NCBI RefSeq assembly: GCF_947495735.1
Contig: NZ_CANMAA010000007.1
Coordinates: 1 to 64,000 of the forward strand
Length of the DNA stretch: 64,000 nucleotides
Origin: an uncultured Pseudokineococcus sp.
Lineage (GTDB): Bacteria > Actinomycetota > Actinomycetes > Actinomycetales > Quadrisphaeraceae
Direction: 5' to 3'
Positions 6,479 through 13,276 of this stretch are shown here, in pieces. Every line of letters starts with the position of its first letter. Position 1 is the first letter of the stretch. The position numbers and the translations under genes were made by a program. A model generated the notes under the pieces. It was not told the origin of the DNA, ran no database searches, and saw only the letters and a program-made list of their open reading frames with translations.

Positions 6479-8806
6479 TCAGCCCGGGACCACGTCCACG
6501 CCGACGACGCGCCGGTCGGCGGTGGTGACGCGGTGCACGGCACCGGTGAGCTCGACGGCGGCGGTCAGCACCGGGTCCTGGCAGGAGGTGCCGACGGCCA
6601 GGTCGATCGCCCCCGGCTCGACGACCCGGGTCATCGAGCGGTCGGTGAACGCCAGCCGCGTCGTCGGGACGTCGAAGACGACCTCCGCGCTCTGCCCGGG
6701 CGCGAGCTCCACCCGCGCGTACCCGAGCAGCTGCGTGACGGGCCGGGTCACCGAGGCCACGGGGTCGCTCGCGTAGAGCTGCACGACGTCGGCGCCGGCC
6801 CGCTCGCCGGTGTTCTCCACGCGCACCGAGACCTGCAGCGCGCCGTCGGTGGGCACCTGCGCCGAGGCCACGCGCAGGTCCTCGTGGGCGAAGGTGGTGT
6901 AGGACAGGCCGAACCCGAAGGGCCGCACGGGCGCGGTGTCGATGTTGCTCACCGAGCTCTGCGCCCCCAGCTTCGGGTGCAGGTAGGAGTACGGCTGGGC
7001 CCCCACCGAGCGGGGCAGCGACACGGGCAGGCGCCCCGAGGGGTTGACCCGCCCCGACAGCACCCCCGCGACGGCCCCGGCGCCCTCCTGGCCCGGGAAG
7101 AACGCCTGGACGACGGCGGCGCAGCGCTCCAGCGCCCAGTCGACCGCGTAGGGCCGGCCGGTGAGCAGCACGGCCACGACCGGGGTTCCCGTGTCGAGCA
7201 GCGCCTCCAGCAGCTGGCGCTGCACGCCCGGCAGGTCCAGGGACTCGGCGTCGCAGCCCTCGCCCGAGGTGCCGCGGCCGAAGAGCCCGGCGCGGTCGCC
7301 CAGCACCGCCACGACGACGTCGGCGTCGCGCGCCGCGTCGACGGCCGCGGCGATCTGCGACGTGTCCGCCGTGTCGACGTCGCACCCGCGCGCGGAGGTG
7401 GTGGTCGCCCCGCTCAGCTCGGCGCGCACGGCCTCGAGCACGGAGGCGACGTCCAGACCCAGCTCGACGCCGGGGTGCTGGGCCAGCACGTGGTTGGCGA
7501 AGCTGTAGCAGCCGAACAGCGCGGAGGTGTCGTCGGCGTTGGGGCCGACGACGGCCACCCGCCGCGGCTCGGCCGCCGCGAGCGGGAGCACGCCGTCGTT
7601 GCTCAGCAGCACCACGCCCTCCTCGGCGATCTGCCGGGCGAGCTCGCGGTGCGCGGGCGGGTCGAGGTCGATCTCCCCGACGGCGTCCGGGTCGAAGACG
7701 GCGTCGAGCAGGCCCAGGCGCTCCTTCTGCGCCAGGACGCGCCGCAGCGCCCGGTCCACCAGCTCCTCGCCGGTGCGGCCGTCGCGGACGCGGGCGGCCA
7801 GGGGCTCGAGGTAGGTGGTGCCCGTGGGCAGCTCGACGTCGATGCCGGCGGCGAGCGCCTGCGCGGCCGCGTCGCCCGGGTCGCCGGCCACCCCGTGCAG
7901 CGACTGCAGGAACGCGACGGCGAAGTAGTCGGCGACCACCGTGCCGGTGAAGCCCCACTCGTCGCGCAGCAGGTCGGTGAGCAGGGACGCGTCCGCGGCC
8001 ACGGGCACGCCGTCGACCTCGGCGTAGGAGTTCATCACCGAGTCGACGCCGCCGTCGAGGACGGCCATCTCGAAGGGGGGCAGGAGCACGTCGGCGATCT
8101 CGCGCGGGCCCGCGTGGACCGGGGCGAGGTTGCGGCCGGCGCGGGAGTTCGAGTAGCCGACGAAGTGCTTGAGGGTCGCCACGACGCCGGTCGACTGCAC
8201 CCCACGGACGTAGGCGGTGGCCACGGTGCCCACCACGTACGGGTCCTCGGCGATGCACTCCTCGACCCGTCCCCAGCGGGCGTCGCGCACGACGTCGAGC
8301 ACCGGGGCCAGGCCCTGGTGCACGCCGAGGGACCGCATGGACTCGCCGATGGCCGCGCCCATGCGCTCCACCAGCTCGGGGTGGAAGCTCGCGCCCCAGC
8401 TCAGCGGCGCGGGGAACGTGGTGGCGCGCCAGGCCGCCAGGCCGGTCAGGCACTCCTCGTGCACGAGCGCGGGCAGGCCCAGCCGCGTCTTCTCCGTCAG
8501 CCACCGCTGCCGGGCGGCCAGCCCGCGCGCCCCCTCGACGGGGTCGAGCGGTGCCGTGCCGAAGGGGCGGGTCAGCTGCCCCAGCCCCTGGGTGGCGAAG
8601 GCCTCGAACTCCGCGTCCTCGGACTGCATGGCGTCCTGCATGGGCGCGACGTCACCGCCGTCGCCGTCGCCGCCCCTGCCCTCCCACAGGCCGACGAGCT
8701 GGGCCAGCTTCTCCTCCAGCGTCATCGACGCCAGGAGCTCCTCCACGCGCGCCGAGGCGGGAGCCGGGGCTCCGAGGCCGGTGGGCGGGGACAGGTCGGT
8801 GCTCAT
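6479..8806 (-). CDS. glycoside hydrolase family 3 (beta-xylosidase/beta-glucosidase type)
   Basis: 775-aa GH3 enzyme with the full three-domain plan: TIM barrel (about 20-340), alpha/beta sandwich (about 390-600) and C-terminal fibronectin-III-like domain (about 650-765). The retaining nucleophile is D293 in the VVADYF strand; KHF at 213-215 is the substrate-binding motif. There is no signal peptide, so it acts in the cytoplasm on imported oligosaccharides. SD AAGGA precedes ATG 8806. It is the last gene of an ABC-transporter operon and is followed by a hairpin. With a GH10 xylanase nearby, beta-xylosidase is the likeliest activity; beta-glucosidase or arabinosidase cannot be excluded. Confidence 0.93.
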   Translation of the reverse strand: MSTDLSPPTGLGAPAPASARVEELLASMTLEEKLAQLVGLWEGRGGDGDGGDVAPMQDAMQSEDAEFEAFATQGLGQLTRPFGTAPLDPVEGARGLAARQRWLTEKTRLGLPALVHEECLTGLAAWRATTFPAPLSWGASFHPELVERMGAAIGESMRSLGVHQGLAPVLDVVRDARWGRVEECIAEDPYVVGTVATAYVRGVQSTGVVATLKHFVGYSNSRAGRNLAPVHAGPREIADVLLPPFEMAVLDGGVDSVMNSYAEVDGVPVAADASLLTDLLRDEWGFTGTVVADYFAVAFLQSLHGVAGDPGDAAAQALAAGIDVELPTGTTYLEPLAARVRDGRTGEELVDRALRRVLAQKERLGLLDAVFDPDAVGEIDLDPPAHRELARQIAEEGVVLLSNDGVLPLAAAEPRRVAVVGPNADDTSALFGCYSFANHVLAQHPGVELGLDVASVLEAVRAELSGATTTSARGCDVDTADTSQIAAAVDAARDADVVVAVLGDRAGLFGRGTSGEGCDAESLDLPGVQRQLLEALLDTGTPVVAVLLTGRPYAVDWALERCAAVVQAFFPGQEGAGAVAGVLSGRVNPSGRLPVSLPRSVGAQPYSYLHPKLGAQSSVSNIDTAPVRPFGFGLSYTTFAHEDLRVASAQVPTDGALQVSVRVENTGERAGADVVQLYASDPVASVTRPVTQLLGYARVELAPGQSAEVVFDVPTTRLAFTDRSMTRVVEPGAIDLAVGTSCQDPVLTAAVELTGAVHRVTTADRRVVGVDVVPG

Positions 8807-8939
8807 GGGGTCCTTCCGGAGGGCGTGGTGGAGAGGAGGGCTCGCGGCGGCGGGCGGTGCGCCACCGCGAGGGGGCGGCTCGACGGTAGGCCGCTGCAGC
8901 GGGACGGAGGCAGGTCGGTGCAGAGGGATCGAGGTCCGC

Positions 8940-9833
8940 TCAGCCCTTGACGGCGCCCTGGAGGCCGTTGACGATCCGCCGCTGCATCGCGAGGAAGAAG
9001 ATCAGGGCCGGGATCATCGCCAGCGAGGTGAAGGCGAGGACGCCCGCCGTGTCCTGGGCGTACTGGCTCGAGAAGCTCGCCACGCCCAGGGGCAGGGTCT
9101 GCGAGGCGGGGTCGGAGAGCACGAGCAGCGGCAGCAGGTAGGCGTTCCAGGAGGCGACGAAGGCGAGCACGCCCACCGTGACCAGGCCGGGCCCGGACAG
9201 CGGCAGCAGGACCCGCCAGAAGAAGCCGAACCGGGACGCGCCGTCGATCATGGCCGCCTCCTCGAGCTCCTTCGGCAGCGCCGCGAGGAAGGGCCGGAGG
9301 ATGACGACCGTCAGCGGCAGGGCGAACGCGGCCTGCGGCAGGGCCACGCCCCAGACCGAGTTCGTCAGGCCGACGTCCCGCACGAGCAGGAAGAGCGGGA
9401 TGATCGCCACGGTCAGCGGGAACAGCAGGCCCAGGGTGAAGACCAGCGCCAGGGCCTCGCGGCCCTTGAACTGGTAGCGGGCCAGCGGGTAGGCCGCCAT
9501 GACGCCGAGGACGCACACGATGACGGTCGTGACGAGCGCCACGAGCGTCGAGTTGAGCGTGTAGCGCCAGAAGCTCGGCGACGTCAGCACGTCGACGTAG
9601 TTGTCGACCACCCACGGGTCGGGCAGGCCCGTCGGGTTCGCGGCCAGCTGCGCGTTGGAGCGGAAGCCGCCGAGGAAGGCGTAGGCGACCGGGGCCACGG
9701 TGACCACGACGACGACCGCCGCGATCGCGTAGACCAGCGGGCCGCCGCCCCCGAAGGCGGTGCGGCGACCGCGCCGCTCGGGCTGCAGCGGGACCGGTCG
9801 GCCCGGGGCGGGGGTGGTGGTGGGTGCGCTCAT
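8940..9833 (-). CDS. carbohydrate ABC transporter permease (MalG-like)
   Basis: 297-aa inner-membrane permease with six predicted helices and the cytoplasmic EAA loop (LPKELEEAAMIDGASRFGFFW), which contacts the ATPase. It forms the MalG-type half of a CUT1 importer with the neighbouring permease and binding lipoprotein. No ATPase gene is in this locus, so a shared MsiK-type ATPase encoded elsewhere is likely, as is usual for actinobacterial CUT1 systems. ATG 9833 overlaps the stop codon of the upstream permease by four bases (ATGA), suggesting translational coupling. Confidence 0.94.
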   Translation of the reverse strand: MSAPTTTPAPGRPVPLQPERRGRRTAFGGGGPLVYAIAAVVVVVTVAPVAYAFLGGFRSNAQLAANPTGLPDPWVVDNYVDVLTSPSFWRYTLNSTLVALVTTVIVCVLGVMAAYPLARYQFKGREALALVFTLGLLFPLTVAIIPLFLLVRDVGLTNSVWGVALPQAAFALPLTVVILRPFLAALPKELEEAAMIDGASRFGFFWRVLLPLSGPGLVTVGVLAFVASWNAYLLPLLVLSDPASQTLPLGVASFSSQYAQDTAGVLAFTSLAMIPALIFFLAMQRRIVNGLQGAVKG

Positions 9834-10814
9834 CGCACGGCCTTCCTCGGCGTCGGTGCGCTGTCGGTGTCGCGACGCAGGATGAACTGCTGGTACAGCA
9901 CGGCCAGCACCAGCGAGATGACGAAGAGGATGACGGCGACCGCCGAGGCGTAGCCGTACTGGCCGCGCTCGGTGCCCTGGTTGATGAGGTAGATCGCCAT
10001 CGTGACGGTCGAGTTGGCAGGACCACCGCCGGTGAGGATCCACACCATGTCGAACAGCTGCAGCGAGCCGATCATGGACAGGAAGCCCCAGGTGCGGATC
10101 GTCGGCCCCAGCAGCGGGATCGTGATCCGGCGCTGCACCTGCCACCACGACGCGCCGTCGAGCTGCGCGGCCTCGTAGACGTCCTCGGGCACGCCCTGCA
10201 GGCCGGCCAGGAACAGCAGCACCGCCAGGCCGAGGTACTTCCAGGTGAGCACCACCATCACGGTCCCGAGCGCGACCTCGGGGTCGCCGAGCCACAGCTG
10301 GGTCAGCCCGCCGAGCCCCACGCCCTCGACGACGGCGTCGACGAGGCCGTTTGGCTGCAGGAGCAGCACCCAGACGACGCCCGCCACGACCTCGGCGAGG
10401 ACGTACGGCATGAAGATGACGACCCGGAGGAAGCCCCGGCCGCGGATCTCCCGGTTGAGCAGGAGCGCGATCCCCAGCCCCAGCGGCAGCTGGATCGCGA
10501 TGGACAGCCCGATGATGAGGAAGTTGTTGAGCACCGCGCTCGTGAAGACGGTGTCCTGCAGCGCGCGGGCGTAGTTCGCCAGGCCCACGAAGTCGTCCAG
10601 GGGCCCCAGGCCGTTCCAGTCGAACACCGAGTAGCGCACGGCCTGGACGACCGGGACCACCACGAAGAGGGCGAGCAGGGCCAGCGCCGGGCCCGTGAAG
10701 ACGGCGATCTCCAGGCGCTGGCGCCCCGCCGAGGAGAGCCCGCGCCGGCCGCTGCCGCCCCCGGCCGCCGCGGGGTGGGGCCGCGACGTGCGCGCCCGTC
10801 GAGCGTCCGCTCAC
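9830..10814 (-). CDS. carbohydrate ABC transporter permease (MalF-like), 5' end apparently frameshifted
   Basis: MalF-type permease with an EAA loop (VPEDVYEAAQLDGASWWQV) and a normal C-terminus. The clear frame runs back through a standard first helix ([20 protein letters not shown]) into a Ser/Gly/Arg-rich leader, but no ATG, GTG or TTG exists in that frame before a stop at 10811-10813, other than GTG 10663/10660 inside helix 1. GTG 10814, with a GGCGGA-type site and 17 bases after the preceding stop, is a natural start but in another frame. A single-base indel in the G/C run near 10750-10770 would restore one intact protein. It could be a sequencing error or a real lesion. Confidence 0.8.
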
Positions 10815-10831
10815 GTCGTCCGCCCCCGGCC

Positions 10832-12118
10832 TCAGGCGGTGCCGGCCGCGGCCTGGACCGCGTCGACGACGTCCTGCGGCGTGGCCTGCCCGGCGAACAG
10901 CAGCGCGATCTCGTCGTTCATCGCCCCGCCGACGTTCTCGCCGAACGCCGTGTCGAAGTACAGCTGCACGTACGGCGCGCTGTCGCGGTACTCGATGAGG
11001 TCGGCCAGCGCCGGGTCGGACACCGCGTCGTTGGCCGCCGGGTTGGTCGGCAGGCCCATGTCGCGCTCGGCGAAGCCCTGCTGGACCTCGTCGCTCAGGA
11101 GGTGCTGGACGAAGTCCACGCACACCGGCGGGGCGTCGGCCGCGCAGGCCCAGGCGTCACCGCCGCCGAGCGCGGCGTCGGGCGCGCCGTCACCGCCCTC
11201 CACGGAGGGGAAGGGGAACCAGCCGGTCTTCTCGCCGAGGCCCTCGCCGTCCTCGGTGAGCCCCTGCATGACGCCGGGCTCCCAGTGGCCGGCCAGCTCC
11301 ATGGCCACCTGCTCGGTCGCGAGCAGGCCGGAGGCGCTGGCGGGGCCCTCCTGGGCGGGGGTGCCCAGGAAGCCCTCGTTGAAGGGCTCGGTGGCGACGA
11401 GGCCCTCGAGGTCCTCGCCGGCCGCGACGAAGCACGGGTCGGAGAAGTCGAGGGTGGTCACGGCGTCCTCGAGGACGTCCTGGCCGCACTCGCGCAGGGC
11501 GGTGTAGTACCAGTAGTGCGCCGCCGGCCACTTGTCGCCGGCGCCCACGGAGATCGGCTGGATGCCGGCGTCCTTGAGCGCCTGGACCGCGGCGTCGAGC
11601 TCCTCCATCGTCGCGGGCGGCTCGGTGATGCCGGCCTGCTCGAAGAGCTCGGTGTTGTACCAGAAGCCCACGACGCCGACCGAGAACGGCAGGGCGTACG
11701 TGGCGCCGTCGACCTGCCAGCCGTTGACCGAGCTGCCGATGGTCTCGATCGTGTCGGCGGCGGCCTCGGAGAGGTCCATCGTGAGCCCGGCCTCGACGTG
11801 GTCGGCGAGCTCGCCGCCGCCGCGCTCCATGTAGACGTCGGGCGTGTCACCGGTCTGGAAGGCGGCGTTGAGCCGCGTGAGCATGTCCTCGTGCGCCAGG
11901 GCGCTGATCTCGATCGTCGTGCCCGGGTTGGCCTCCTCGAAGTCCGCGGCGACCTGCTCGTAGTAGGCCTTGCCGGGGTCGCTGTTGGAGTTGTGCCACC
12001 AGGTCATGGTGCCGTCGGACTCGCCGCCGCCGGCGTCGGAGTCGCCGCCGCCGCAGGCGGTCAGGACGGACGCCGTCGCCAGGATCGCGACGGCGGAGAG
12101 GGCTCGGTTCCTCGCCAT
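10832..12118 (-). CDS. sugar ABC transporter substrate-binding lipoprotein (CUT1)
   Basis: 428-aa periplasmic-type binding protein anchored as a lipoprotein: signal helix, then lipobox LTAC at residues 19-22 followed by a GGG/Ser/Asp linker. The mature domain opens with TMTWWHNSNSDPGKAYYEQVAADFE, typical of extracellular solute-binding family 1. Start ATG 12118 with AAGGA eight bases upstream. It is first in the operon with two permeases and the GH3 gene, divergent from a LacI regulator. Context suggests xylo-oligosaccharide import; binding specificity is not readable from the sequence. Confidence 0.93.
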   Translation of the reverse strand: MARNRALSAVAILATASVLTACGGGDSDAGGGESDGTMTWWHNSNSDPGKAYYEQVAADFEEANPGTTIEISALAHEDMLTRLNAAFQTGDTPDVYMERGGGELADHVEAGLTMDLSEAAADTIETIGSSVNGWQVDGATYALPFSVGVVGFWYNTELFEQAGITEPPATMEELDAAVQALKDAGIQPISVGAGDKWPAAHYWYYTALRECGQDVLEDAVTTLDFSDPCFVAAGEDLEGLVATEPFNEGFLGTPAQEGPASASGLLATEQVAMELAGHWEPGVMQGLTEDGEGLGEKTGWFPFPSVEGGDGAPDAALGGGDAWACAADAPPVCVDFVQHLLSDEVQQGFAERDMGLPTNPAANDAVSDPALADLIEYRDSAPYVQLYFDTAFGENVGGAMNDEIALLFAGQATPQDVVDAVQAAAGTA

Positions 12119-12188
12119 GGGGAGTGTCCTTGTCGTCGTTGACGGAGGGGTGCGCCGCCGAGGATGCACACGCCCCATTCCGGGTGTC

Positions 12189-12215
12189 AAACGTTTTCGA
12201 CAACGGTTTCGAAAC
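12189..12215. promoter_or_regulatory. paired LacI-type operators between the transporter and lacI genes
   Basis: Two perfect palindromes: AAACGTTT (12189-12196) and GTTTCGAAAC (12206-12215). They lie 20-odd bases from the lacI start and on the upstream side of the transporter operon. LacI-family operators are short palindromes with a central CG, which both satisfy. Their position next to the lacI -10 hexamer suits autoregulation and repression of the operon. Confidence 0.7.
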
Positions 12216-12217
12216 GC

Positions 12218-12229
12218 TAGGCTCCTCGC
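12218..12229 (+). promoter_or_regulatory. leaderless-type promoter of the lacI gene
   Basis: TAGGCT (12218-12223), six bases, then GTG 12230. The hexamer starts two bases after the second operator palindrome, so a bound repressor would cover the polymerase site. Confidence 0.6.
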
Positions 12230-13276
12230 GTGGACGAACTCCGTCAGCGCGCGACGACGCCCGCTGACCCCCAGCGCGTGACCATCACCGACGTCGCCCG
12301 GCTGGCCGGGGTCTCCGCGGCGACCGTCTCGAAGGTGGTCAACGGCCGCTACGGGGTCTCCGCCCGGACCGTCGAGCACGTGCGGGGCGTCATCGAGGAG
12401 GTGGGCTACGAGTCGAGCCTGGTCGCGCGCAGCCTGCGCAGCCACCGCACCAACGTCATCGGGATCCTCGTGGCCGAGTTCGAGCCCTTCAGCACCGAGA
12501 TCATCAAGGGCACCGCGGCGGCCATCAGCGGCACGGGGTACGAGCTGCTGGCGTACTCCGGCGGCGGCCGCGCCGAGGAGGACGCGGGCTGGGAGCGCAG
12601 GTCGCTCTCGCGGCTGGGGGGCACCCTCATCGACGGAGCCATCCTCGTGACCCCCACCGTCGTCGGGGCCGCCGGCGCCGTGCCCGTGGTCGCGATCGAC
12701 CCGCACGCCGGCCCGAGCGACCTGCCCACCGTCGACGCCGACAACGTCCGCGGCGCCGTCCTCGCCACCGAGCACCTGCTCGGCCTGGGCCACCGCCGGA
12801 TCGCCTTCCTGGGCGGGCGCCCGGGCCTGGAGTCCTCCCGCCTGCGCGAGGAGGGCTTCCGCACCGCCATGGCGGCCGCCGGCGCGCCCGTCGACCCCGA
12901 CCTCGTGCGGGTGGGCGGGTACCGCCCCCAGACCGCCACGGGCCCGGCCCACGAGCTGCTGGCGCACCCGGACCGCCCGAGCGCCGTCTTCGCGGCGAAC
13001 GACGTCTCCGCGATCGCCACCATGGGCGTCGCCCGCGAGCTGGGCCTGTCCGTCCCGGGCGACCTGTCCGTCGTCGGCTTCGACAACGTCCCCGAGTCGG
13101 TGCTGGCGGAGCCGCCGCTGACCACCGTCAGCCAGCCGATGCAGGCGATGGGCACGTCCGCCGTGCAGCTGCTGGTCCAGCTGATGAACGGCTCGCCGGA
13201 GACCGCCCCGGACGGCGGCACGCACGTCCGGCTGCCCACCGAGCTCGTCGTGCGCGGGTCGACCCGGGCGCTGTAG
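12230..13276 (+). CDS. LacI family transcriptional regulator of the xylan locus
   Basis: 348-aa LacI/GalR regulator. The N-terminal helix-turn-helix spans about residues 17-40 (VTITDVARLAGVSAATVSKVVNG), then the hinge helix, and a periplasmic-binding-like sugar domain from about 75 to the end (DLPTVDADNVRGA, VFAANDVSAIATMGVARELGLSVPGDLSVVGFDN). Start GTG 12230 lies six bases after TAGGCT, so the mRNA is probably leaderless. It faces the transporter operon across two palindromes and precedes the GH10 gene on its own strand, so it likely represses both in the absence of a xylan-derived inducer. Confidence 0.94.
   Translation: MDELRQRATTPADPQRVTITDVARLAGVSAATVSKVVNGRYGVSARTVEHVRGVIEEVGYESSLVARSLRSHRTNVIGILVAEFEPFSTEIIKGTAAAISGTGYELLAYSGGGRAEEDAGWERRSLSRLGGTLIDGAILVTPTVVGAAGAVPVVAIDPHAGPSDLPTVDADNVRGAVLATEHLLGLGHRRIAFLGGRPGLESSRLREEGFRTAMAAAGAPVDPDLVRVGGYRPQTATGPAHELLAHPDRPSAVFAANDVSAIATMGVARELGLSVPGDLSVVGFDNVPESVLAEPPLTTVSQPMQAMGTSAVQLLVQLMNGSPETAPDGGTHVRLPTELVVRGSTRAL

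Follow-up and report, generated by a model that had tools for sequence, protein, structure and literature searches.

A reading-frame break in the leader of a Pseudokineococcus sugar permease gene, and hairpins at the binding-protein/permease junction of its relatives

In Escherichia coli, a stem-loop lies between malE and malF. It occupies the operon position of the actinobacterial hairpins described below but is intergenic, and we liken the two by position, not by sequence. Wu et al. (PMC9045158) show that in clostridia, premature termination of transcription at stem-loops following the binding-protein gene reduces the level of permease transcripts, and they also predict such loops in E. coli. 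The clostridial loops were sought in intergenic regions and described as internal intrinsic terminators whose U-rich tracts contain less U than is usual. The hairpins of actinobacteria resemble them in being long, G+C-rich stem-loops that closely follow the binding-protein gene and lie ahead of, or at, the first permease gene. They differ from the clostridial loops in lying mostly downstream of a possible permease start and in having no T run. Judged from titles and the openings of abstracts, none of the papers listed in the literature searches reports an actinobacterial permease gene with a hairpin within its coding region. Stem-loops between binding-protein and permease genes are already known, and a location within the reading frame of the permease may be new as a variant. 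As to broken reading frames, Antonov et al. (PMC3711429, section 'Singletons') expect that singleton frame breaks validated by BLASTp come from sequencing errors and not from genuine indels. The gene described here is like the singletons of that section in that homologues have an unbroken frame, the product is conserved in other respects and there is no conserved frame transition, and unlike them in coming from a single draft genome without reads, whereas complete genomes were used there.

The window, that is, the whole stretch of DNA that was analyzed, corresponds to the initial 64 kb of contig C7 in a draft genome of an uncultured Pseudokineococcus (59 contigs). Its minus strand hosts, in this order, a sugar-binding protein gene (10832-12118; PF01547, E-value 1.2e-38 when scored over 10832-12124, with the first ATG at 12118), a first permease of the BPD_transp_1 family (9830-10810, open from stop to stop, with the core from 10663; PF00528, E-value 9.7e-18), a second permease gene (8940-9833; PF00528, E-value 1e-19) that overlaps the first by 4 nt, and a GH3 beta-xylosidase/alpha-L-arabinosidase gene (6479-8806; NF052329, 1269.3 bits against a cut-off of 1050). 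A divergent LacI-family regulator lies on the plus strand (12230-13276; PF13377, E-value 1e-41; PF00356, E-value 2.7e-14). We infer that the operon encodes an ABC importer of the xylo-oligosaccharide type, with a putative substrate. The first permease passes the Pfam gathering score for PF00528 (65 bits against a cut-off of 26.4), and its gene has one full-length copy genome-wide.

According to the original prediction, the frame of this first permease, which ends at 9830, has no start codon back to a stop at 10811-10813, and GTG 10814, 17 bases past the preceding stop, lies in a different frame. The sequence confirms both points. TGA at 10813-10811 closes the permease frame upstream, no ATG, GTG or TTG occurs in this frame between 10810 and GTG 10663, and the GTG at 10814-10812, separated by 17 bases from the binding-protein stop (10834-10832), is offset from the permease frame by one base. 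It had also been noted that a start at GTG 10663 would cut helix 1, and this holds when the helix is assigned by eye: it sits before and across that codon. With the canonical in-frame starts of the deposited sequence, helix 1 is not translated whole.

Alignment to relatives identifies the GTG at 10812-10814 as the conserved start codon of the permease, which is out of frame in the copy analyzed here and not in five relatives with the same aligned ACGTGA. In these, the start and the permease core share one frame, with the start at -207 in L002 and L003, -198 in L004, -192 in L005 and -180 in L034; L002, L003 and L005 belong to the same genus, L004 to the same family and L034 to Georgenia. All five distances are divisible by three, whereas the 151 nt between GTG and core in the window are not. 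Since GTG and permease share a frame in the relatives, joining the two frames seen here yields the N-terminus of the relatives, which an alignment to homologous permeases had been proposed to check. The upstream 240 nt are identical between L003 and L032 (Pseudokineococcus marinus), and between L002 and L033 (uncultured Pseudokineococcus). Compared to L032/L033, L004 and L005, the stretch from GTG to core is shorter here by 56, 47 and 41 nt, respectively, and none of these differences is divisible by three. Overall, an in-frame start lies 25 codons or more ahead of the core in 107 of 109 relative loci (six of which are duplicates of others). The two exceptions are L042, which is cut by a contig end, and L035, which has a frame break too. 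These comparisons bear on the reading that the gene simply starts at GTG 10663, the first canonical in-frame start, with the N-terminal part of helix 1 being dispensable. Such a start would cut a helix that the relatives retain, and 107 of the 109 start further upstream, which makes this reading highly improbable.

Codon preference passes from the GTG-10814 frame to the permease frame, with the best switch at 10778 and all switch points from 10757 to 10784 within about 4 log units of the best. Over codons 17-50, the codon preference score is +28.5 for the permease frame and -27.7 for the GTG frame. Homology to congeners runs in the GTG frame down to about 10770 and resumes in the permease frame from about 10740, and the approximately 30 nt in between have no unique alignment to congeners. 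By these sequence comparisons, the placement of the frame change within the zone 10740-10770 of the minus strand appears robust.

The original prediction had ascribed the frameshift to a one-base indel at 10750-10770. The frame break stands, and a one-base indel in that place is possible but is not proven by gap models. Among two-gap models aligned to P. marinus L032, one surplus base combined with a 57-nt in-frame loss is the best (118 matches, next 116). Against L033 it ties with three others (113); against L004 it reaches 119 compared to 120, level with another model and with the base placed near 10741; against L005 it falls outside the twelve best. One surplus base is therefore a possible reading; it is the best simple model when P. 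marinus is the reference, but this does not hold for every relative. At first, this model had a lead of 10 matches over a single 56-nt deletion, which none of 500 simulations reached. Its uniqueness was lost with two-deletion models and two more relatives, and we have withdrawn the claim that it was proven; the early preference was strong because fewer models were tested then. The original explanation is largely right in kind and partly supported, with its detail unproven.

The best reading of the break is an ordinary one, in which the gene is a working one and its sequence is either erroneous or very recently mutated. We consider an error of sequencing or assembly in an otherwise working gene the most likely origin, with appreciable room left for doubt, and the weighting of error against real mutation is a matter of judgement. 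If so, the permease gene would begin at GTG 10814 and continue into an N-terminal tail that is poorly conserved and very G+C-rich. The frame would be broken in the draft sequence, at about 10770-10740, by a net change in length that is not a multiple of three, and the living cell would presumably have an intact frame.

To survey frame breaks, we compared translated ORFs of 544 kb of this genome and 518 kb of the congener G003, accepting or dropping candidates by inspection; the survey is blind to breaks in variable tails, and the present one at 10770-10740 was unflagged. This genome returned four candidate breaks in 137 ORFs (157,833 aligned bases), two of which were accepted, and the reverse survey of G003 returned none in 138 ORFs (155,328 bases). 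Two smaller surveys yielded the first and second of these candidates, and their reverse comparisons yielded none. Two accepted breaks against none are too few to prove an error-rich assembly. One accepted break, in a conserved gene at G000:C7 ~91,902 (L113, outside the window), has a longer G run than G003. The other, at G000:C2 ~102,880 (L147), is one base short and lies in a gene that, from a motif, we take to resemble a DNA/RNA non-specific endonuclease. The candidate at C7 ~35,040 was dropped as the leader of a putative cold-shock gene and that at C2 ~130,450 because its ORF was judged antisense, both by eye. We also rejected an assembly-wide artefact of hairpin dropout. Stems of at least 12 pairs are nearly as frequent in this assembly (7.0 per 100 kb) as in G003 (8.4 per 100 kb), so there is no general dropout at hairpins.

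A real and recent frame-breaking mutation in the strain, after which the permease would not be made or only from a poor internal start, is a serious if doubtful alternative. Leader length does change readily, being 151 nt here and 180 to 207 nt in the five near relatives, and Georgenia L035 has a separate frame break in the same leader (around 2376-2500). There, the GTG lies 125 nt from the core compared to 180 nt in L034, a net loss of 55 nt where L034 has an 18-pair hairpin, which fits a hairpin-linked deletion. However, this parallel itself comes from a draft assembly, and neither the permease gene nor its neighbors show signs of decay. Compared to G003, the first permease core (277 codons) has a dN/dS of 0.14, and the second permease, the binding protein and GH3 have 0.09, 0.21 and 0.17, respectively. 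Constraint on the permease gene is not measurably relaxed, with 0.14 inside the 0.09-0.21 of its neighbors, a comparison in which a very recent break leaves no trace.

It is also conceivable, but improbable, that the sequence is right and the cell copes with it, either by +1 ribosomal frameshifting in the C-rich leader or by a non-canonical start such as the CTG in CGCCTGGAG. Joining the two frames means skipping one base, which is the direction of +1 frameshifting, but relatives with a continuous frame have no need of it and nothing is therefore conserved. The conserved frame transition of a programmed frameshift is absent from the relatives, 107 of 109 of which have an in-frame upstream start, and L035 is broken in its own way. 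A start at the CTG, which precedes helix 1, would keep this helix whole. Against it, L032 and L033 have CTC at that codon, and no Shine-Dalgarno-like site is seen by eye ahead of the CTG.

By itself, the frame break matters for annotation only: the appropriate label is a probably intact gene of doubtful sequence, and not a gene that starts at 10663 or is dead. The leader is more important than the break. In 59 of 84 near orthologues, the window counted, the stretch from the binding-protein stop to permease helix 1 contains a stem of 12 or more pairs. The 84 have an identity of 63% or more and a binding-protein stop that could be placed; at most two G-T or A-C mismatches were allowed, and 11 loci were dropped as duplicates, at contig ends or with a stop impossible to place. 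All but one of the 59 hairpins lie downstream of a possible start codon, the exception being that of L005 in the intergenic gap. When all rows are considered, 68 of 99 have the junction stem, compared to none of 99 in the permease interior. In L032, L033, L004, L034, L043 and others, the hairpin lies about -160 to -80 from the permease core.

In a scan of 102 distinct loci, the window included, 61 have upstream of the core a stem with 12 or more Watson-Crick pairs, G-T being allowed inside the stem. The permease interior gave 0 of 102, and shuffled sequences reached 12 pairs in 7 of 102 (best of 20 each). A stricter count of unbroken Watson-Crick stems of at least 11 pairs returned 39 of 103 rows, fewer than with G-T allowed. 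Upon synonymous recoding of the tail, 2.8 stems are expected while 54 are observed in 89 rows (12 of 101, in which the stretch is not open, were excluded). In G003, 8 of 315 coding-like ORFs have such a stem in the first 200 nt, and 1 of 257 has it in the middle of the ORF. In 60 hairpin-bearing rows, no start codon occurs inside or after the hairpin in 30, whose hairpin should therefore lie in the reading frame; a possible start is found inside the hairpin in 16 and after it in 12, and none upstream in 2.

We examined the pairing in an alignment of 14 rows (13 distinct), picked by leader length and not by hairpin, with the near-duplicate L090 omitted from an original 15. In 96.4% of the cells the bases pair, and 6 of 15 pairs changed on both sides, compared to at most one in slid controls. 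By our own reading of the alignment, four of these six two-sided changes come from L106, which belongs to another genus and was shifted by the aligner. The ratio of G-T to A-C mismatches is 49:16 over all hairpins and 10:8 in 22 dissimilar representatives, so that it decides nothing on strand, and we rejected it as proof of an RNA strand. We likewise rejected a canonical terminator. None of 68 hairpins has at least five T in the 10 nt after the stem, and no terminator-like site was found within 8800-12400 of the window. Rfam at gathering thresholds returned no match in four loci.

Substitutions in 17 pairs fall on codon positions 1, 2 and 3 as 14, 6 and 11 in the tail upstream of the hairpin, 12, 15 and 11 in the hairpin, 9, 6 and 22 after it, and 19, 8 and 53 in the core. 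GC by codon position is nearly flat in the tail. We do not take the tail upstream of the hairpin as strongly supported to be coding, given its little codon-position bias.

At the junction of the window, no stem of at least 12 pairs was found, the longest having 7 pairs. When the 150 nt after the start are folded as single-stranded DNA, the z-score is -8.4 in L032, -7.0 in L033, -4.5 in L034 and -3.3 in L004, compared to -1.8 in the window, -1.2 in L005, whose hairpin is before the start and not after it, and +0.5 in L035 (125 nt). Both frame-broken copies, in the window and in L035, have no junction hairpin, which is suggestive. The same is true of 23 others of the 84 near rows, and with 25 of 84 rows lacking it the coincidence has a chance of about 0.09; we therefore do not tie the frame break to hairpin loss. 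In Promicromonospora (L066, L071, L073, L076 and L081), the binding-protein stop lies 112-127 nt from the core and there is no hairpin, as though tail and hairpin were gained and lost jointly.

By analogy, the actinobacterial hairpins are likely a variant of the clostridial stem-loop device, with a putative function. We tentatively entertain, as a possibility short of the likelier outcome, that a stem-loop setting the ratio of binding protein to permease moved into the permease frame in many high-GC actinobacteria. Much of the N-terminal tail would then be a translated hairpin, free in sequence and prone to deletion, and loss of the hairpin would have broken the frame here and in L035. If the hairpin is an expression element within coding sequence, it would explain the long, unconserved, Pro/Ala/Arg/Gly-rich tails of these permeases and offer a testable route to excess binding protein in actinobacteria with nearly overlapping genes.

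The fetched Pseudokineococcus stretches contain 17 permease junctions, counting the one described here; a stem of 12 pairs or more is present at 5 of them and absent from 12. In a second sugar operon, this genome carries a hairpin of 16 bp at the corresponding junction (G000:C7:125558-125593; L115:1558-1593). Its counterpart in the congener is a 15-bp hairpin with paired differences, and in both genomes a possible start GTG lies in the loop.
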